Part shown: one piece after another, positions 664-23,887 of the stretch
How the letters are laid out: the number at the start of each line of letters is the position of its first letter
How positions within the stretch are numbered: the stretch's first letter is position 1
Origin: Aedoeadaptatus nemausensis
Lineage (GTDB): Bacteria; Bacillota; Clostridia; Tissierellales; Peptoniphilaceae
Direction of reading: 5' to 3'
Assembly: GCF_903819165.1 (NCBI RefSeq)
Contig: NZ_CAIJCS010000019.1
Location: 248,001-312,000 of the forward strand
Length of the DNA stretch: 64,000 nt
Position numbers and translations under genes: made by a program
Notes under the pieces: generated by a model
Told to the model about the DNA's origin: nothing
What the model saw: only the letters and a program-made list of their open reading frames with translations
The model's database searches: none

Positions 664-847
664 TGGAATCCCGCCCGGCCGGACTTCGTATAATTCAGAC
701 CCGCCCTTACTGTAAGGTGGGTAATCTGTTAACTACTTCTAACTTCCACTCGGTGGAGGCTTGTTATAGGTAACTAAACACGATTTCCCGTGTCTGATTT
801 GTCGGTTGAATTAACAGAAGTAATCGAACCGGGCAGGAAAATTTCTT
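637..847 (-). ncRNA. Free-standing structured RNA of about 210 nt, 6S RNA (SsrS) candidate
   Basis: The unit has its own promoter (TTGATA at 877-882, 17-base spacer, TATAAT at 854-859) and its own intrinsic terminator (644-663 plus a U-tract). It contains no open reading frame of note. The ends can pair: CCTGCCCGG near the 5' end with CCGGGCGGG near the 3' end give a 9-bp GC-rich closing stem with one G-U pair. Internal hairpins include ACACG/CGTGT, TCCAC/GTGGA and CCTTA/TAAGG; the last sits on the 3' side just inside the closing stem, where 6S RNAs carry a small hairpin. Known 6S RNAs are long, about 180-200 nt, largely double-stranded rods with a central bubble that bind housekeeping RNA polymerase. 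The match is by architecture, not by sequence identity. SRP RNA, tmRNA and RNase P RNA were considered and do not fit. Confidence 0.5.
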
Positions 848-909: not shown

Positions 910-1416
910 TTAGAGCACCCATTCAATAAGAAGCTCCACAGGCCTTGCATCGGAAACCAGCCGGTAAATAGGATTGGCTTCCTGTGCCCCTCGAATCATT
1001 TCGTTCATTTCCTCGGGATCACCGTCTCCGTAATAAAATAATTTTACCTGAATCTCCTCAATATCGGCGGGATCGTCGTAGCCCCTCACGGGAATCATGC
1101 GCAAGGGATTGGTGATCTTTGCGCGCACGAGCCCTTCTATTTCGTCGAGAAGGATCCCTTTTGATTTAAGCTCTTTTACCGATGTAAAGAGAATGGATGA
1201 GAGAAAGCTCCCTAAAAAATAGGATATACTCGTCACTTTTTCGTATTCATTGTCGAAACTTACCGTATCACCTACGGAAAGTTCCACACGATCCGTATAG
1301 AGTTTCACATCTTTTAAATCGGGATAGGTTCCCCGCATGCTCATTTCAAAATAACGGGCCTCCGCCGGTTTTTCTTCTCGCTTTGCCACAGAAGAGAGAA
1401 TCTCCTTATTTTTCAT
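910..1416 (-). CDS. OsmC-like fold protein lacking the catalytic cysteines
   Basis: 168-residue protein with the overall pattern of the OsmC/Ohr superfamily: an N-terminal beta-rich part, a central helix around FLGSFLSSILF (about residues 67-77) and a C-terminal segment NPIYRLVSDARP (about 147-158). In OsmC and Ohr peroxidases the central helix and the C-terminal segment each carry a cysteine that reduces peroxides. Here those places hold Phe and Tyr, and the protein has no cysteine at all, so peroxidase activity is not expected. It is the last gene of a four-gene operon and overlaps the upstream core-MetE gene by 11 bases, implying translational coupling and a shared role. Function unknown; the fold assignment is by eye. 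Confidence 0.6.
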   Translation of the reverse strand: MKNKEILSSVAKREEKPAEARYFEMSMRGTYPDLKDVKLYTDRVELSVGDTVSFDNEYEKVTSISYFLGSFLSSILFTSVKELKSKGILLDEIEGLVRAKITNPLRMIPVRGYDDPADIEEIQVKLFYYGDGDPEEMNEMIRGAQEANPIYRLVSDARPVELLIEWVL

Positions 1417-2572
1417 AACAACTTCTCAATTCCTTTTTCACCGATTGTAAAACGGAAAGTTTTTCCTCAATATGGGCGAGTTCATTTACCGGCTTTTTAG
1501 CGAATGTGGCGAAGCCGCAATCGGGATTGAGCATAATCTGCTCAGGCGGCAGATAATTCATAACCTCTTCCACGCGCTCGATAATAGCTTCTTCCGATTC
1601 CGTGGCGTCTTGCCTCGGGTTCATTACGCCGAGGCCCAGTGTAGCCCGCTCGAAGATCTTCTTATTCTCGAAAAGGGAGGCAATGTCCCCTGCCCGATCC
1701 GTAGAATATTCCAGGAAATAAATATCCGCCTTCACCGCCTCGAAAAGTTCGAGAAGGGGGGTATAAGATCCCGTCAAGAGAATGGTCTCATCCTTGCTCC
1801 AGTTACCGCGGCAAACGTGGAGGGCGGCGCGGGATTTTTCCCGATCCACCGACGCCAAGACTTCCTTAATTAATCCCGTGGCGAAAATAAGCTCTTCCGT
1901 CGGGTCCTTCTTTTCCGAAAGAGAGGCGCACATAAAGGTGCGGGTATGGGCCGGAGAAAAGACAACTTCTGTGAGGACCGGCTCGTCGAATTGGATAATG
2001 TCCACGCCCTCTTCCTGCAGTTCCCGAATTTCCTCTTTAAAAATGGCCACCACATCGGCGCCGAGCTCTTCTTTGGAATCATAATAACCGTCGGAAAGGC
2101 CTTTAAGCCACATGGATCGGGTTACGAGATAGGGACCCGGAAGAGTGATTTTCTTTTTGCTCCCGGTCATGCGTTTCATGGCCCGCAGTTCTTCCAAAAC
2201 CATGGGCTTATCCCGGGTCACTTTCCCGGCGCAAATAGCGTTTTTTATACTGTTGGCGGGCACGTCTAAAATAGAGAGCATATCTTCATAGGCTTTCTTA
2301 TCTTCGATATAGGGGAGCATATCGCTCATGCTCATCATCTTCACGCCGCCTAAGGCGCCGGCGATAAAGGACACGTAATTATCTCTGGAAAGTTCGCCGC
2401 AGGTAATGTAATCCACATCGTATGCGTCTTGAAGCTTTACCACTTTTTCAGTTGCCTCTTCCACCATCTTGTCGTACTCTTCCCGGCTCATTCGGCCCTT
2501 GTCCACATCGCGAACGGCCTTTAATAGGGCATTGCCTCTCGGCATAGAGCCCATAAGGGATACTTCAAACAT
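1406..2572 (-). CDS. Cobalamin-independent methionine synthase family protein, core (C-terminal domain only) type
   Basis: 388 residues, equivalent to the C-terminal catalytic barrel of MetE, without the N-terminal half of the usual ~750-residue enzyme. The zinc and homocysteine ligands of MetE have visible counterparts: His and Cys in ALHVCRGNW, Glu in YFLEYSTDRAG, and Cys in LNPDCGFAT. Zinc-dependent methyl transfer to a thiol is therefore plausible. Single-domain enzymes of this family (core-MetE, MesD, archaeal MetE) do not use methyltetrahydrofolate polyglutamate in the same way as full MetE and often take methyl groups from other donors. Operon context (acyl-CoA dehydrogenase homologue, PhnD-like protein, OsmC-like protein) suggests a dedicated methyl donor or sulfur compound; that is inference. 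A GGAGG site precedes the ATG. Confidence 0.85.
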   Translation of the reverse strand: MFEVSLMGSMPRGNALLKAVRDVDKGRMSREEYDKMVEEATEKVVKLQDAYDVDYITCGELSRDNYVSFIAGALGGVKMMSMSDMLPYIEDKKAYEDMLSILDVPANSIKNAICAGKVTRDKPMVLEELRAMKRMTGSKKKITLPGPYLVTRSMWLKGLSDGYYDSKEELGADVVAIFKEEIRELQEEGVDIIQFDEPVLTEVVFSPAHTRTFMCASLSEKKDPTEELIFATGLIKEVLASVDREKSRAALHVCRGNWSKDETILLTGSYTPLLELFEAVKADIYFLEYSTDRAGDIASLFENKKIFERATLGLGVMNPRQDATESEEAIIERVEEVMNYLPPEQIMLNPDCGFATFAKKPVNELAHIEEKLSVLQSVKKELRSCYEK

Positions 2573-2589
2573 GAATACCTCCTTAATAA

Positions 2590-2618
2590 GGAAAGCCCAC
2601 CCTTTGATGGGCGGGCTC
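2590..2618 (-). other. Intercistronic hairpin between the PhnD-like and MetE-like genes
   Basis: In the 57-base gap an imperfect hairpin AGCCCGCCC/GGGTGGGCT with one mismatch can form on the minus-strand transcript, followed by only a few U residues. It may be a weak terminator that lowers expression of the two downstream genes, or an mRNA-stabilising structure. No other signal is visible in the gap except the MetE-like ribosome binding site. Confidence 0.4.
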
Positions 2619-2629
2619 TCTGTTTCTTC

Positions 2630-3451
2630 TTAGATTTCGAAGAAGTTCATATAGTCTACTGCTTTACGAATCTCTTCAAAGTTTGTGGTACGACCGGGTA
2701 CCCATTCTTTCAGGCCTTCCAGGTCGAGGATTTCTTTGTCTCGTTCCCTGGAATAATCCATGGTCAGCAAGACATCGTCGAATGCTTTTAAGTCTTCGTC
2801 GGCGACATCTTCGTGGGCGGTGAAGATGCAGTGGTCAAAGGAATTGGTTTTGCCGATAACTTCCAATTGATTGCCGTCTACGGTGCCGTCTTTAACCCAT
2901 GCGTTAAAGTTGCCTTCGATGGCAAAGCCCGCTACATTATCGCCGGCTTCAACGGATTGGATGGCGTCCAGTTCGCCGCCGGTGTGGTCGCCGTCGAGGC
3001 CCACGCCGATATCGTAGCGCACTTCTTCGTAATCCTTACCGAATTCAAGACCTTGTTCCCGCAAGTATTGAATGGGAATCAAGCGCGCTTGAGGGGAGTC
3101 GATGGCGCCGAAGGCGATCTTTTTGCCCTTTAAGTCTTCTACCGATTGAATGCCGCTGCCTTTTTTGGCCACGAGGACCGTGTGGAGATCTCTGTCCGTA
3201 TCTCGCATAAGGCCGTATTTTACTTTGCCGTTGAGGCGAAGTTCGGCTTCACGATTGGCGAGGGGCGAGTTCCACGCCACGTCGATTTCTTTGTCCATAA
3301 GGGCTTTAATTTGGCTGCGATATTCGTCGAAGAATACGGGCTCAATGACGATACCCATATCTTGATCTTCGATGTATTGGCGAATCATATCCCAAATAAC
3401 GGTGATCTTCGGGTCGTAAATTACGGCTCCGACTTTTAATTTAATGGTCAT
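2630..3451 (-). CDS. PhnD/SsuA-type substrate-binding protein without export signal
   Basis: 273 residues resembling periplasmic/lipoprotein phosphonate-binding proteins: an N-terminal lobe with IDVAWNSPLANREAE (about 57-71), the LVAKKGSGIQSVEDLKGKKI hinge (about 92-111) and a second lobe with VAGFAIEGNF. Family members are normally lipoproteins that hand ligand to an ABC permease. Here the protein starts directly at the mature fold, MTIKLKVGAVIYDP, with no signal peptide or lipobox, and no permease or ATPase gene is adjacent. It should therefore sit in the cytosol and act as a ligand sensor, chaperone or enzyme-like binder. It is 27 bases downstream of the acyl-CoA dehydrogenase homologue and upstream of core-MetE. 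Ligand unknown; oxyanion, phosphonate or sulfonate compounds are typical for the family. Confidence 0.8.
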   Translation of the reverse strand: MTIKLKVGAVIYDPKITVIWDMIRQYIEDQDMGIVIEPVFFDEYRSQIKALMDKEIDVAWNSPLANREAELRLNGKVKYGLMRDTDRDLHTVLVAKKGSGIQSVEDLKGKKIAFGAIDSPQARLIPIQYLREQGLEFGKDYEEVRYDIGVGLDGDHTGGELDAIQSVEAGDNVAGFAIEGNFNAWVKDGTVDGNQLEVIGKTNSFDHCIFTAHEDVADEDLKAFDDVLLTMDYSRERDKEILDLEGLKEWVPGRTTNFEEIRKAVDYMNFFEI

Positions 3452-3478
3452 TCTATGCTCCTAAACTGATTTCTGTTT

Positions 3479-4609
3479 TTACGGAATCATTTGTCCCGTT
3501 AAGACGCTGCCGATCCATTGATGCAAAATGTCGAGACTGGGCGCCATAACTTGTCCTGCAAGGGCATCTGCAAAGTAGTGAGCGAAGTCTCTGAATTGAC
3601 TGTACGCACGGCCGCCGCCTACTTGCATACCGAGCTTGCCGCTTTCCGTTACATTTTCGATGGCGATAACGCGAGCGGAAAGAATCTTCGCAAGGGCATC
3701 TTCGTCGCCGCGACGAGCTGCAAGAGCTGCTTCGCGAGTAGCGGAAACGCCTGCAAATGCGTTGTTGTAAATGGTGGAAAGGTGAAGTTTGATCGTATCC
3801 ACTTCAGACAATTTGCTTCCGTCGGGGAAGGTTCTGTCGGTAGCGTGCATAATGGCTTCGTTGGAAATAGCCACGTTCAAGCCGCTGTAAACCGATGCGA
3901 GACCTTGGATGAAAAGAGGTGCGACGAGGGTAAGGATTTGTTCCATACCGGAGTTGTTGTCGCCGGTGCGATACATTTCGTCGAGTTCCATATTGTCCAT
4001 GTACATGGGGCAGGAAACATTGCCTCTTAAGCCGATGCCGTTCCAGCGTTCCATCTTAAATTCCAAGCCTTCGCTTTCGATGGGAACACAGAAGTTGTCG
4101 GTGTCGGCACGGCCTTCGCCTGTTTTGGCGATAACCATGTAATAAGATGCGTATTCCGCAGAGGTAACCATGCTCTTGGAGCCGTTAAGGAGCCATTTGT
4201 CGCCCTTCTTTTCTGCAGTTGTTTCGGGATAGTAGAAGCTTACGCCGCTTCCGGATTCGGAGTATGCCAGGGCGAGGGTTTTGCCTTCTTCTACAACTTC
4301 TTTTACAATTTTTTGTTTTAATTCTTCCTTACCTGCATTGAGTACGATGTTCAAAGCCACATTGTGCATCATGTAGGTTAAGCCGACCGTTGCCGATTTT
4401 TCGGAGAATGCGCGAATAATTTCCGAGTGATCGTAAATATCGCCGCCTAATCCGCCCATTTCTTTAGGAATTAATAATTTTAAGTAGCCTTCTTTTTTAA
4501 GTTCGTCGTAGATGCCTGCCGGGAACTCTACCTTTTCAGAAAGTTCTCTTGCAACAGGCGCAATATGTTTTTCGGCAAATTCTTTTGCACCATTGTAGTA
4601 TTCCATCAT
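3479..4609 (-). CDS. Acyl-CoA dehydrogenase superfamily flavoprotein, atypical
   Basis: 376 residues with the acyl-CoA dehydrogenase layout: N-terminal helical domain, flavin-binding middle strand domain (ALAYSESGSG near 112-121 and NGSKSMVTSAEYASYYMVIA near 141-160), and C-terminal helical bundle. In classical short- and medium-chain enzymes the C-terminal bundle ends with an IYEGT motif carrying the catalytic glutamate. At the equivalent place this protein reads VMAPSLDIL, so that base is absent. Loss of this residue is seen in superfamily members that act on other substrates, such as the DszC/SfnB-type flavin enzymes. First gene of the four-gene operon, with a promoter and a predicted structured leader immediately upstream and a clear AGGAGG site. 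The first Met of MMEYY is used here; the second is also possible. Confidence 0.85.
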   Translation of the reverse strand: MMEYYNGAKEFAEKHIAPVARELSEKVEFPAGIYDELKKEGYLKLLIPKEMGGLGGDIYDHSEIIRAFSEKSATVGLTYMMHNVALNIVLNAGKEELKQKIVKEVVEEGKTLALAYSESGSGVSFYYPETTAEKKGDKWLLNGSKSMVTSAEYASYYMVIAKTGEGRADTDNFCVPIESEGLEFKMERWNGIGLRGNVSCPMYMDNMELDEMYRTGDNNSGMEQILTLVAPLFIQGLASVYSGLNVAISNEAIMHATDRTFPDGSKLSEVDTIKLHLSTIYNNAFAGVSATREAALAARRGDEDALAKILSARVIAIENVTESGKLGMQVGGGRAYSQFRDFAHYFADALAGQVMAPSLDILHQWIGSVLTGQMIP

Positions 4610-4624
4610 TTCCTCCTTATAAAT

Positions 4625-4690
4625 AAAATGACTCCTTCAGTTGCCGTGGGTTCGTTTTCCCAAATGCTAACTGAATCTCTACGGACTCAC
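4625..4690 (-). promoter_or_regulatory. Predicted pseudoknotted leader RNA, possible riboswitch, of the flavoenzyme/core-MetE operon
   Basis: On the minus-strand transcript TTCAGTT (4669-4675) pairs perfectly with AACTGAA (4636-4642), enclosing a TGGG/CCCA hairpin (4659-4662 with 4647-4650). In addition CCGT (4681-4684), outside the first helix, can pair with ACGG (4644-4647) inside it, which makes an H-type pseudoknot; the last base of ACGG is shared with the hairpin, so the two helices may compete. The element starts at the predicted transcription start and ends about 20 bases before the ribosome binding site. Size and position are those of small translational riboswitches such as SAM-II, SAM-III or preQ1 types. 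A short stretch ACGGCAACTG recalls the SAM-I core, but the rest of that consensus is missing. Class and ligand are unknown. Confidence 0.45.
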
Positions 4691-4694
4691 CATA

Positions 4695-4723
4695 GTTTTA
4701 GCAGAAATTACGGAAAGCTTCAA
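4695..4723 (-). promoter_or_regulatory. Promoter of the flavoenzyme/PhnD-like/core-MetE/OsmC-like operon
   Basis: Minus-strand TTGAAG (4718-4723), 17-base spacer, TAAAAC (4695-4700). The predicted start near 4688 coincides with the 5' edge of the pseudoknot element, so nearly the whole leader is the structured RNA plus the ribosome binding site. Confidence 0.55.
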
Positions 4724-11214: not shown

Positions 11215-11246
11215 TGAATCTTCGTATGAAAAGAAAATCCTCAAGA

Positions 11247-11416
11247 CACGATAGCCCTCCGTTCGCTCGGCGAACGACAGTACGTAAGATATTCTCCTAC
11301 GTCCCGGCGATAAGCATCCGTGGACACGAACGCTTAACCCTCGGCACGTTTCCCTTTCCCGAAAATCCATTGACCGGAGATAATCGGTACTGATGAAACA
11401 TGCGCCTCTATCACGC
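11247..11416 (-). promoter_or_regulatory. Lysine riboswitch (L-box) aptamer
   Basis: The minus strand carries the L-box landmarks in order: GTGATAGAGGCGC at the 5' edge, AAAGGGAAACGTGCCGA, GGGTTAAGCG, GCTTATCGCCGGGAC, GAATATCTTACGTACTGTC, and GGAGGGCTATCGTG closing the P1 stem with the 5' edge. It is followed by an intrinsic terminator at 11185-11214, so control is by transcription termination (OFF switch). It serves the NhaC-family transporter. Confidence 0.93.
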
Positions 11417-11436
11417 TTATTCGATTATTGTATATG

Positions 11437-13164: not shown

Positions 13165-13185
13165 AAAGCTGCTAAAGAGGATAGC
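13165..13185 (-). promoter_or_regulatory. Expression-platform hairpin before the folT ribosome binding site
   Basis: A 7-bp stem GCTGCTA/TAGCAGC lies between the THF aptamer and the Shine-Dalgarno sequence. Its loop reads TCCTCTT, complementary to the AAGGAGGA of the ribosome binding site a few bases downstream, so it could take part in hiding that site. No terminator U-tract follows, which favours translational control. Confidence 0.5.
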
Positions 13186-13276
13186 AGCGGATGCGGCAAA
13201 AGATAGCGAGCCTCTTATCTCTTCGTTTGAGGGCAACTTCCCATCCCTCAACACTTGACGCCTTTTGCCTACTCTA
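13186..13276 (-). promoter_or_regulatory. Tetrahydrofolate (THF) riboswitch
   Basis: On the minus strand the THF aptamer landmarks appear in order: AGAGTAGGCAAAAGGCGTC, AAGTGTTGAGGGATGGG, AGTTGCC, AAACGAAGAGATAAGAGGC, and the closing GCCGCATCCGCT. The layout matches the folT-type THF riboswitch of Firmicutes with its long-range loop contact. It sits between the folT promoter (13289-13317) and start codon. Confidence 0.88.
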
Positions 13277-13288
13277 CATAACGAAACT

Positions 13289-23627: not shown

Positions 23628-23634
23628 TGATCCA

Positions 23635-23887
23635 TCGAGTTTGACGAGGAGAGTACCTCGAATTTTCGGACTACAGAGAAGCTTCATTTGGTGAGAGGAG
23701 CTGTTTTGAGAATCGGGAGAACATGGCCTCCGACTCTGGCGATCGATAATAGATCGTCACAGGTGCGCCTGTTATAGCGCCGGGGTATGATAGTACCCGC
23801 TAAGGTGTAAATCGTGAGGTTTACATAAATAAAGGTGGTAACACGGTTTATATCGTCCTTTTCCCAATGGGAAAAGGACTTTTTTTA
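23635..23887 (+). promoter_or_regulatory. T-box riboswitch with methionine (AUG) specifier
   Basis: A leader of about 250 bases with T-box architecture. The specifier loop reads GAACATGGCC, in which AUG (23723-23725) occupies the codon position. The antiterminator bulge has the T-box core AAAGGTGGTAACACGG (23831-23846). A terminator GTCCTTTTCCC/GGGAAAAGGAC plus U-run follows (23855-23887). Uncharged methionyl-tRNA should stabilise the antiterminator and turn on the methionine importer. The specifier and the gene content agree. Confidence 0.88.
23855..23887 (+). terminator. T-box-controlled terminator
   Basis: Perfect 11-bp stem GTCCTTTTCCC/GGGAAAAGGAC with an AAT loop and eight U residues, ending 20 bases before the metN start. 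The 383 bases between murB and metN hold only this leader and its promoter. Confidence 0.9.

Follow-up and report, generated by a model that had tools for sequence, protein, structure and literature searches.

Four adjacent genes near one end of a 64,000-nucleotide stretch of Aedoeadaptatus nemausensis DNA (the window, in which all positions are counted from the first letter) are very probably tied to selenium use. The genes encode a flavoprotein of the acyl-CoA dehydrogenase (ACAD) fold, a cytosolic protein with the fold of PhnD-type substrate-binding proteins, a core-MetE-type zinc methyltransferase, and an OsmC-fold protein free of cysteine. SelD or SelA was found in all 50 of the carrier genomes tested, and selenium genes adjoin the four-gene set in some loci. 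Tentatively, and with the chemistry itself in doubt, we read the set as a module that would supply or recycle selenium for SelD. A preliminary description of the window had proposed that the operon harvests a methyl group or sulfur from a small organic donor for methionine; as written, that proposal is unsupported, selenium use being what the set is associated with.

The four-gene set is conserved in several phyla

An alignment of the PhnD-like protein, scanned against 84,980 species genomes, gave 243 relatives, and the loci analyzed here are the best 80 of these. By profile searches, 73 of the 80 loci, which represent several phyla, have the complete set on a single strand, with gene centres no more than 5.5 kb apart; an initial BLAST look had overlooked several OsmC genes that were later recovered by profile. 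The gene order was ACAD-PhnD-MetE-OsmC in 45 loci, OsmC-ACAD-PhnD-MetE in 11, and OsmC-PhnD-MetE-ACAD in 7, with other orders in the rest. Since the order has been shuffled while the neighborhood was kept, a shared function is strongly indicated, and the conservation excludes chance as the origin of the gene set. The four genes had been described as one functional unit, with the proviso that their homologues should also occur together elsewhere, and the 73 loci bear this out. Among the seven incomplete loci, five (L092, L093, L108, L114, and L119) are close to the ends of stretches or contigs, and in L096 the MetE and OsmC genes are several kilobases off, inside a glycine/sarcosine reductase cluster.

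Closer to the host, among its own genome and those of 60 relatives, 8 of the 61 gave a PhnD-like match with E < 1e-90. All eight have the four genes together in the same order, with the identity of the OsmC-like protein falling as low as 25%. Three PhnD matches from the host's order were weaker (L029 to L031), and not one of them had any of the other three genes close by. A scan of the phylum with an eight-row model at E 1e-20 matched 2 of 398 genomes, the host itself and one weak match, indicating that the set is patchy. Of the named records in the 84,980-genome scan, Aedoeadaptatus coxii comes nearest to the host, its PhnD-like protein being 92% identical, although records very near the host were possibly omitted. 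The set was also found in genomes labeled Paenibacillus, Neobacillus, and Planctomycetota, which are largely aerobic groups.

Some loci carry altered copies of the genes. The ACAD gene is present two- or threefold within or beside the set in L023, L024, L026, L060, and L110. In Companilactobacillus versmoldensis the reading frame of core-MetE is split (L059:8814-9999), and in the locus of a Campylobacter metagenome-assembled genome (MAG) the set is broken in several of its genes (L097:2030-5172); sequencing errors or decay could account for either case.

Carriers of the set that were tested have SelD or SelA

We searched for SelD in the genomes of 50 of the 80 loci, among which L096, L100, L104, and L110 were known beforehand to have selD nearby. 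SelD scored above its cut-off in 48 of the 50. The two exceptions, the L116 genome with no match and the L123 genome with a match below the cut-off only, both have SelA. SelA was present in 42 and SelU in 19 of the carriers, and either one in 47. Because the set thus occurs nearly always in genomes that already have a selenium-using trait, supply of selenium is favored over its consumption.

We then analyzed whole families. In the host family, the PhnD-like gene (E up to 1e-40) is present in 24 of 130 genomes, with the gene neighborhood viewed directly for part of those 24 (eight genomes and some named loci), and SelD is present in 86. SelD accompanies the PhnD-like gene in every one of the 24, compared with 62 of the 106 genomes without that gene (Fisher p 2e-5). 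Within the host genus, five genomes have both the PhnD-like gene and SelD and three have neither, the two genes being far apart. In a Paenibacillus-group family, the PhnD-like gene was found in 7 of 197 genomes (neighborhood viewed in two of the seven), all seven with SelD, while SelD occurs in 98 of the 197 overall (p 0.007). SelD is rare in Lactobacillaceae (17/397), yet it is present in four of four carriers (L059, L084, L094, and L095), which were drawn from the 80 loci rather than from a PhnD search of the 397 genomes, one of them lying outside the 397.

Selenium genes adjoin the set in some loci

The selD gene itself lies inside 5 of the 80 loci (L096, L100, L104, L110, and L120). In Alloiococcus otitis (L110), the set and two further ACAD copies are located between tRNA-Sec with a yedF-like gene and selD-selB-selA. 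In an Aerococcus MAG (L096), the ACAD and PhnD-like genes are followed by selD-yedF-selB-selA, and the MetE and OsmC genes are on the same contig among the glycine/sarcosine reductase genes. In two Chloroflexota loci (L104 and L120), selD is upstream of the OsmC gene on the same strand, and in a Nitrospinota locus (L100), selD is divergent and near the OsmC gene. L100 also has, after the MetE gene, a LysR gene that passes the cut-off of the model for LysR proteins of selenium metabolism (NF040786), and a second LysR of this type, again above the cut-off, adjoins the OsmC gene in L070.

In the host, another contig (C26) carries selD and then yedF; a selenium LysR gene and, by eye, selA are near them. 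The same region (L155:11146-17913, minus strand) has a proline racemase gene and, by eye, D-proline reductase genes, so that the host probably ferments proline and uses selenocysteine. In the stretch L155:7951-10452 (plus strand), selD is preceded, at a distance of about 105 bases, by an O-acetylhomoserine sulfhydrylase gene (above the TIGR01326 cut-off). This MetY-like gene (L155:7951-9303) was considered as a source of homocysteine and set aside, as a homologue was found in just one of the 80 loci (L105).

Two further arrangements were seen near selenium genes. One Paenibacillus-group genome has an ABC transporter of the PhnD type, its permease and ATPase assigned by eye, directly 5' of selD and selU (L163:7006-9427, plus strand); this transporter is a candidate selenium uptake system. 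A DUF2064/TIGR04282-like gene, with or without a family 2 glycosyltransferase gene, is near selD or selA in Aerococcus (L096:14669-16231), Loigolactobacillus (L160:11320-13623), and Miltoncostaea (L177:3601-6764), and such genes possibly belong to a selenosugar-type pathway; the labels were assigned by eye, and the one case scored (L177) was just under the TIGR04282 cut-off.

Features of the four proteins

None of the four window proteins passed any NCBIfam model (June 2026). The family labels given in the preliminary description nonetheless stand, three by Pfam cut-offs and the OsmC label by a structure model, and the observation that three of the four proteins deviate from their families is true of the relatives as well.

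The flavoprotein scores above the Pfam cut-offs for Acyl-CoA_dh_N and Acyl-CoA_dh_M and just below that for the C-terminal domain (20.5 versus 22.4 bits). Its best NCBIfam model is Rv1679_FadE16 (NF049984), with 207 bits against a cut-off of 600. The YEG segment of medium-chain acyl-CoA dehydrogenase (MCAD), which we take to hold the catalytic Glu, is replaced by Met-Ala-Pro, with Ala in 76 of 77 sequences. Ordinary acyl-CoA dehydrogenation is therefore unlikely, as judged from the MCAD-type position and not the isovaleryl-type position. Sulfur acquisition of the SfnB/DszC type was also considered and rejected, as the NCBIfam scores are far below the cut-offs and the best relative is Rv1679.

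The PhnD-like protein scores above the Pfam Phosphonate-bd cut-off. Its best NCBIfam model is the Rv1680 family (NF049985; 198 bits against a cut-off of 400), and a further match below the cut-off is to a putative selenate binding protein (89.9 versus 250 bits). The structure model (pLDDT 96) is nearest in fold to PhnD, PtxB, ArrX, and AioX, which bind phosphonates (including methylphosphonate), phosphite, arsenate, and arsenite. In the model, the first strand begins at residue 3, which would leave no room for a signal peptide, and Pfam found no transporter permease or ATPase among the four proteins. The Ser-Thr-Ser segment of PhnD and PtxB, which presumably has an oxyanion role, is replaced in the PhnD-like family by an invariant Asp118-Ser119-Pro120-Gln121. 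His156, Glu160, Asp206, His207, and Cys208 are also invariant (50 sequences).

The core-MetE protein scores above the Pfam Meth_synt_2 cut-off. In the locus alignment, the zinc ligands are kept almost throughout (H252, 72/73; C254, 73/73; E288, 73/73; C352, 72/72), as are the homocysteine residues aligned to solved MetE (S9, 76/76; E60, 75/76; D196, 75/75); the roles of these residues are taken from PMC7857596 (this and the other papers cited by PMC number are cited from the portions of their text available to us). Two more cysteines, C114 and C215, are invariant. The alignment makes homocysteine, or a close analogue, the probable ligand of the zinc site. The protein is not a two-domain MetE by model TIGR01371 (95.3 bits against a cut-off of 930). 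The best match among the NCBIfam methionine synthase models gave 128.9 bits against a cut-off of 406, and every other matched model was below its cut-off too. The protein is the only MetE homologue in the host genome at E up to 0.001, MetH not having been searched for. It may make methionine from homocysteine with a non-folate donor.

The OsmC-like protein is slightly under the Pfam OsmC cut-off (24.1 versus 27.5 bits), and its fold is backed by the structure model (Z 12.0, 124 aligned residues, root mean square deviation 3.0). OsmC/Ohr peroxidases have two conserved catalytic cysteines. The window protein has none, and no Cys is among the columns conserved in at least 60% of 71 aligned sequences; individual relatives carry up to five unconserved cysteines. 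Arg28, Glu94, Val110, and Gly112 are invariant (41 sequences).

A possible role in selenium supply and the alternatives

In the mechanism that we propose, the cytosolic PhnD-like protein would bind a small selenium compound and pass it to the flavoprotein, the two together binding and activating a methylated or oxidized selenium compound. Core-MetE would then transfer the methyl group of the methylated selenium (methylselenol, dimethylselenide, or a selenonium compound) to zinc-bound homocysteine, giving methionine, and the demethylation would free selenide or selenol for SelD and selenophosphate synthesis. The cysteine-less OsmC-fold protein may serve as a non-peroxidase partner in binding or handling. 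Since the zinc and homocysteine residues are kept, methyl transfer to homocysteine is plausible as one step, so this part of the earlier proposal stands, whereas methionine as the goal of the pathway is unsupported. In its fullest form, the proposal is of a corrinoid- and folate-independent route that frees selenide from methylated selenium in many phyla, aerobes included, with a cytosolic binder and a repurposed ACAD protein priming methyl transfer to homocysteine; we regard that form as possible but doubtful.

Several points weigh against the supply module. All steps beyond the selenium link are inferred, including that the PhnD-like protein would bind a selenium compound. The part of the dehydrogenase-fold protein in the pathway is unexplained, and neutral selenoethers, unless activated, donate methyl groups poorly to a MetE-type enzyme; these two objections, together with the actinobacterial pairs described below, carry the most weight. 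The 62 host-family genomes that have SelD without the PhnD-like gene indicate that the gene is unnecessary for selenium use as such. The carrier and family samples partly overlap and the statistics ignore shared ancestry, while the loci are the best 80 of the 243 relatives and 50 of them were tested for SelD, so that more distant relatives are outside the sample. In L118, which is not at the end of its stretch, no core-MetE gene is near the other three genes, and in three actinobacterial plasmid relatives the flavoprotein and PhnD-like pair has no annotated core-MetE or OsmC gene nearby (the record start truncates one of the three, and the Rv1678-Rv1681 models were passed in one).

The association could also arise if the set consumed the selenophosphate made by SelD to make or methylate a selenium metabolite, as a new selenium-using trait. 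Such a consumer would account for both the SelD link and a methylating core-MetE, selD adjoins the set in L104, L120, and L100, and genomes with an orphan SelD have been reported (PMC5029168). We nevertheless consider it unlikely, as a consumer would be expected often with SelD alone, and only 3 of the 50 carriers have neither SelA nor SelU, namely a Veillonella and two MAGs, one from Synergistaceae and one from Nitrospinota. In the Synergistaceae genome (L165), moreover, YqeB-like, YedF-like, DUF3343-like, and molybdenum-hydroxylase-like genes were seen by eye in the selD region, and the YqeB-like and molybdenum-hydroxylase-like genes near selD suggest a selenium-cofactor trait. Another alternative is that the set handles or reduces selenium oxyanions or seleninates in the cytosol, as an uptake chaperone or for detoxification and with methyl transfer secondary. 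Such a role would fit the phosphite-, methylphosphonate-, arsenate-, and arsenite-binding proteins nearest the PhnD-like model and the match to the putative selenate binding protein. The loss of Ser-Thr-Ser to the invariant Asp-Ser-Pro-Gln and the retention of the three homocysteine residues of core-MetE in all sequences but one argue against this explanation, which is improbable.

Two explanations do without a selenium function. The set could be a folate-independent methionine synthase system in which the other three proteins supply the methyl donor, as MesX does for MesD. The intact zinc and homocysteine residues, the standing of the protein as sole MetE homologue found in the host, and the use of non-folate donors by core-MetE enzymes (PMC7857596) speak for such a system; it would, however, leave the SelD/SelA link and the selenium islands unexplained, and the window protein is below every NCBIfam methionine synthase cut-off. 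We judge this quite improbable. Least probable is an indirect link, in which the set and the selenium genes go with a common lifestyle or were transferred horizontally together. Many carriers are anaerobic, a setting in which selenium use is common, and some loci are in selenium islands that could be mobile as blocks. Against this, the link persists in Paenibacillus-group genomes that have SelU without SelA and in the SelD-poor Lactobacillaceae, and the host genus has both genes or neither despite their distant positions. Furthermore, 75 of the 80 loci have no selD in the stretch examined, so block transfer cannot explain most cases.

How bacteria supply selenium to SelD is an open question, and two reviews (PMC9312934 and PMC13188914), in the portions available, state that no specific high-affinity prokaryotic selenium transport system has been identified. 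A four-gene marker found nearly always in genomes with SelD makes the question directly testable, and the marker spans selenocysteine and selenouridine users and groups of quite different lifestyles. For the uncharacterized Rv1679/Rv1680-type actinobacterial proteins, it offers a lead on function as well. If the supply module is real, it would be, as far as the literature that we found goes, the first dedicated route of selenium supply to SelD outside anaerobes.

Gene layout and transcription signals in the window

The open reading frames agree with the preliminary description of four same-strand genes separated by 27 and 57 bases, with an overlap of 11 bases between the last two (Table 1).

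Table 1. Features of the four-gene region of the window
Feature	Position	Strand	Basis
Acyl-CoA-dehydrogenase-fold flavoprotein (ACAD), 376 aa, first gene	3479-4609	-	Open reading frame, Pfam
Cytosolic protein with PhnD-like substrate-binding-protein fold, 273 aa	2630-3451	-	Open reading frame, Pfam, structure model
Core-MetE-type zinc methyltransferase, 388 aa	1406-2572	-	Open reading frame, Pfam, residue alignment
Cysteine-free OsmC-fold protein, 168 aa	910-1416	-	Open reading frame, structure model
Terminator-like hairpin in the PhnD-like/core-MetE gap	2595-2612 (2612-2595)	-	Terminator scan
Leader 5' of the first gene	4610-4700	-	Modest folding signal

The single promoter claimed for the operon was not recovered, as the promoter scan gives no site 5' of the first gene on the minus strand and the promoter-like sites in the region are as many as expected (5 observed, 5.1 expected). 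The claim of a structured leader is weak, as the fold is modestly more stable than in shuffled sequences (z -2.35, with 5 of 200 shuffles equal to it), and Rfam gave nothing at the gathering score, a permissive search returning chance-level matches only. The leader sequence seems, by eye, unlike that of the nearest relative. Riboswitch control was rejected, since the leader has no Rfam match at the gathering score and no regulatory RNA is directly 5' of the set in the eight loci scanned. In those 8 of the 80 loci, Rfam gave five matches, among them thiamine pyrophosphate and cyclic di-GMP matches located elsewhere and the tRNA-Sec of L110. Terminator-like sites number 8 in the region against 5.7 expected, which is not clearly above chance. 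The hairpin in the 57-base gap is a possible attenuator or mRNA processing site, and its presence leaves the continuity of the transcript unproved.

A shared upstream motif, TATAGAAA/TTTCTATA, was rejected as too weak. It occurs in 10 of 56 Bacillota-like upstream regions against 2.2 expected, the largest count in 100 shuffles being 9 (shuffles were first-order Markov resamples, and four motifs were tried after the sequences were viewed). Among 16 loci displayed, TATAGAAA/TTTCTATA is in the window, L045, L046, and L055 only. The shorter motif TATAGA/TCTATA is unenriched (13 versus 12.4 expected).

Directly 3' of the operon is a 6S RNA gene (664-842, minus strand) with its own near-consensus promoter-like site (882-854, minus strand), and a pseudouridine-synthase-like gene is upstream of the set. 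The window also contains a tetrahydrofolate (THF) riboswitch (13183-13278, minus strand), a lysine riboswitch (11244-11418, minus strand), and a T-box leader (23632-23863, plus strand). The host genome is 1.8 Mb in size. Among the four proteins, PHROGs matched core-MetE alone, to a family of unknown function, and there is no sign of phage origin.

Comparison with known systems

The preliminary description knew of no pathway with exactly this set, and we likewise found none in the open-licence literature; the four-gene set is absent from the available portions of PMC8562490, PMC9312934, PMC13188914, PMC5322559, PMC5029168, PMC7857596, and PMC10418091. The selenium candidates YedE, YedF, DUF3343, and LysR_Se (PMC5322559) were proposed by the same logic of neighborhood and SelD co-occurrence, although the families differ. 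The candidate lists of PMC5322559 and PMC5029168 name other families, and the terms OsmC, methionine, and phosphonate are missing from the available text of the former. The PhnD-like protein has its fold in common with PhnD, PtxB, ArrX, and AioX but differs from them in lacking a signal peptide, in having no transporter gene among the other three of the set, and in the invariant segment at the Ser-Thr-Ser position.

The actinobacterial Rv1678-Rv1681 set (NF049986, NF049984, NF049985, and NF049973), for which no described function was found in the literature available to us, has the adjacent flavoprotein and PhnD-like pair in common with the four-gene set. The pair in Mycolicibacterium vanbaalenii is flanked by a membrane protein of Rv1678 type and a radical S-adenosylmethionine protein of Rv1681 type, and no core-MetE or OsmC gene is annotated within 16.8 kb. 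Such pairs without core-MetE suggest that the flavoprotein and PhnD-like protein are the core and the methyltransferase a partner. The L104 proteins score 445 and 252 bits against the Rv1679 and Rv1680 models (cut-offs, 600 and 400), and in Miltoncostaea a related pair has selD about 6 kb away. On the M. vanbaalenii plasmid (L179:2336-9814), homologues of Rv1678, Rv1679, Rv1680, and Rv1681, all above the NCBIfam cut-offs, lie close to genes with the annotations deiodinase-like and carboxymuconolactone decarboxylase; both families are given selenoprotein members in the list of PMC13188914.

The MesA-MesD proteins (Price et al., PMC7857596) resemble core-MetE in having a single catalytic domain with the same zinc and homocysteine residues, and MesD also requires a partner protein. 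The partners here are different, namely the flavoprotein, PhnD-like, and OsmC-like proteins.

The closest likeness in proposed function is to the type I mlp clusters (MGCs), for which a preprint by Kountz and Balskus (PMC10418091), in its available text, proposes a role in anaerobes, namely the recycling of methyl-selenides by corrinoid methyltransferases. Methyl-selenides are there described as arising from selenols and S-adenosylmethionine, one mlp enzyme was assayed with selenide, and 87% of type I mlp carriers have selenocysteine genes. Like the four-gene set, these clusters have a zinc methyltransferase and a strong association with selenium use, are at times beside selABCD and glycine reductase genes, and may pass the methyl group to methionine. 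They differ in their MtaA-like (UroD-superfamily) enzymes, corrinoid protein, and reductive activase, and in being reported from anaerobes only. Among the four window proteins no UroD-superfamily or corrinoid Pfam family was found, the rest of the host genome not having been searched. As the set has a MetE-class zinc/homocysteine methyltransferase in place of a corrinoid protein, we read it as what may be a corrinoid-independent counterpart of the type I mlp methyl-selenide clusters.

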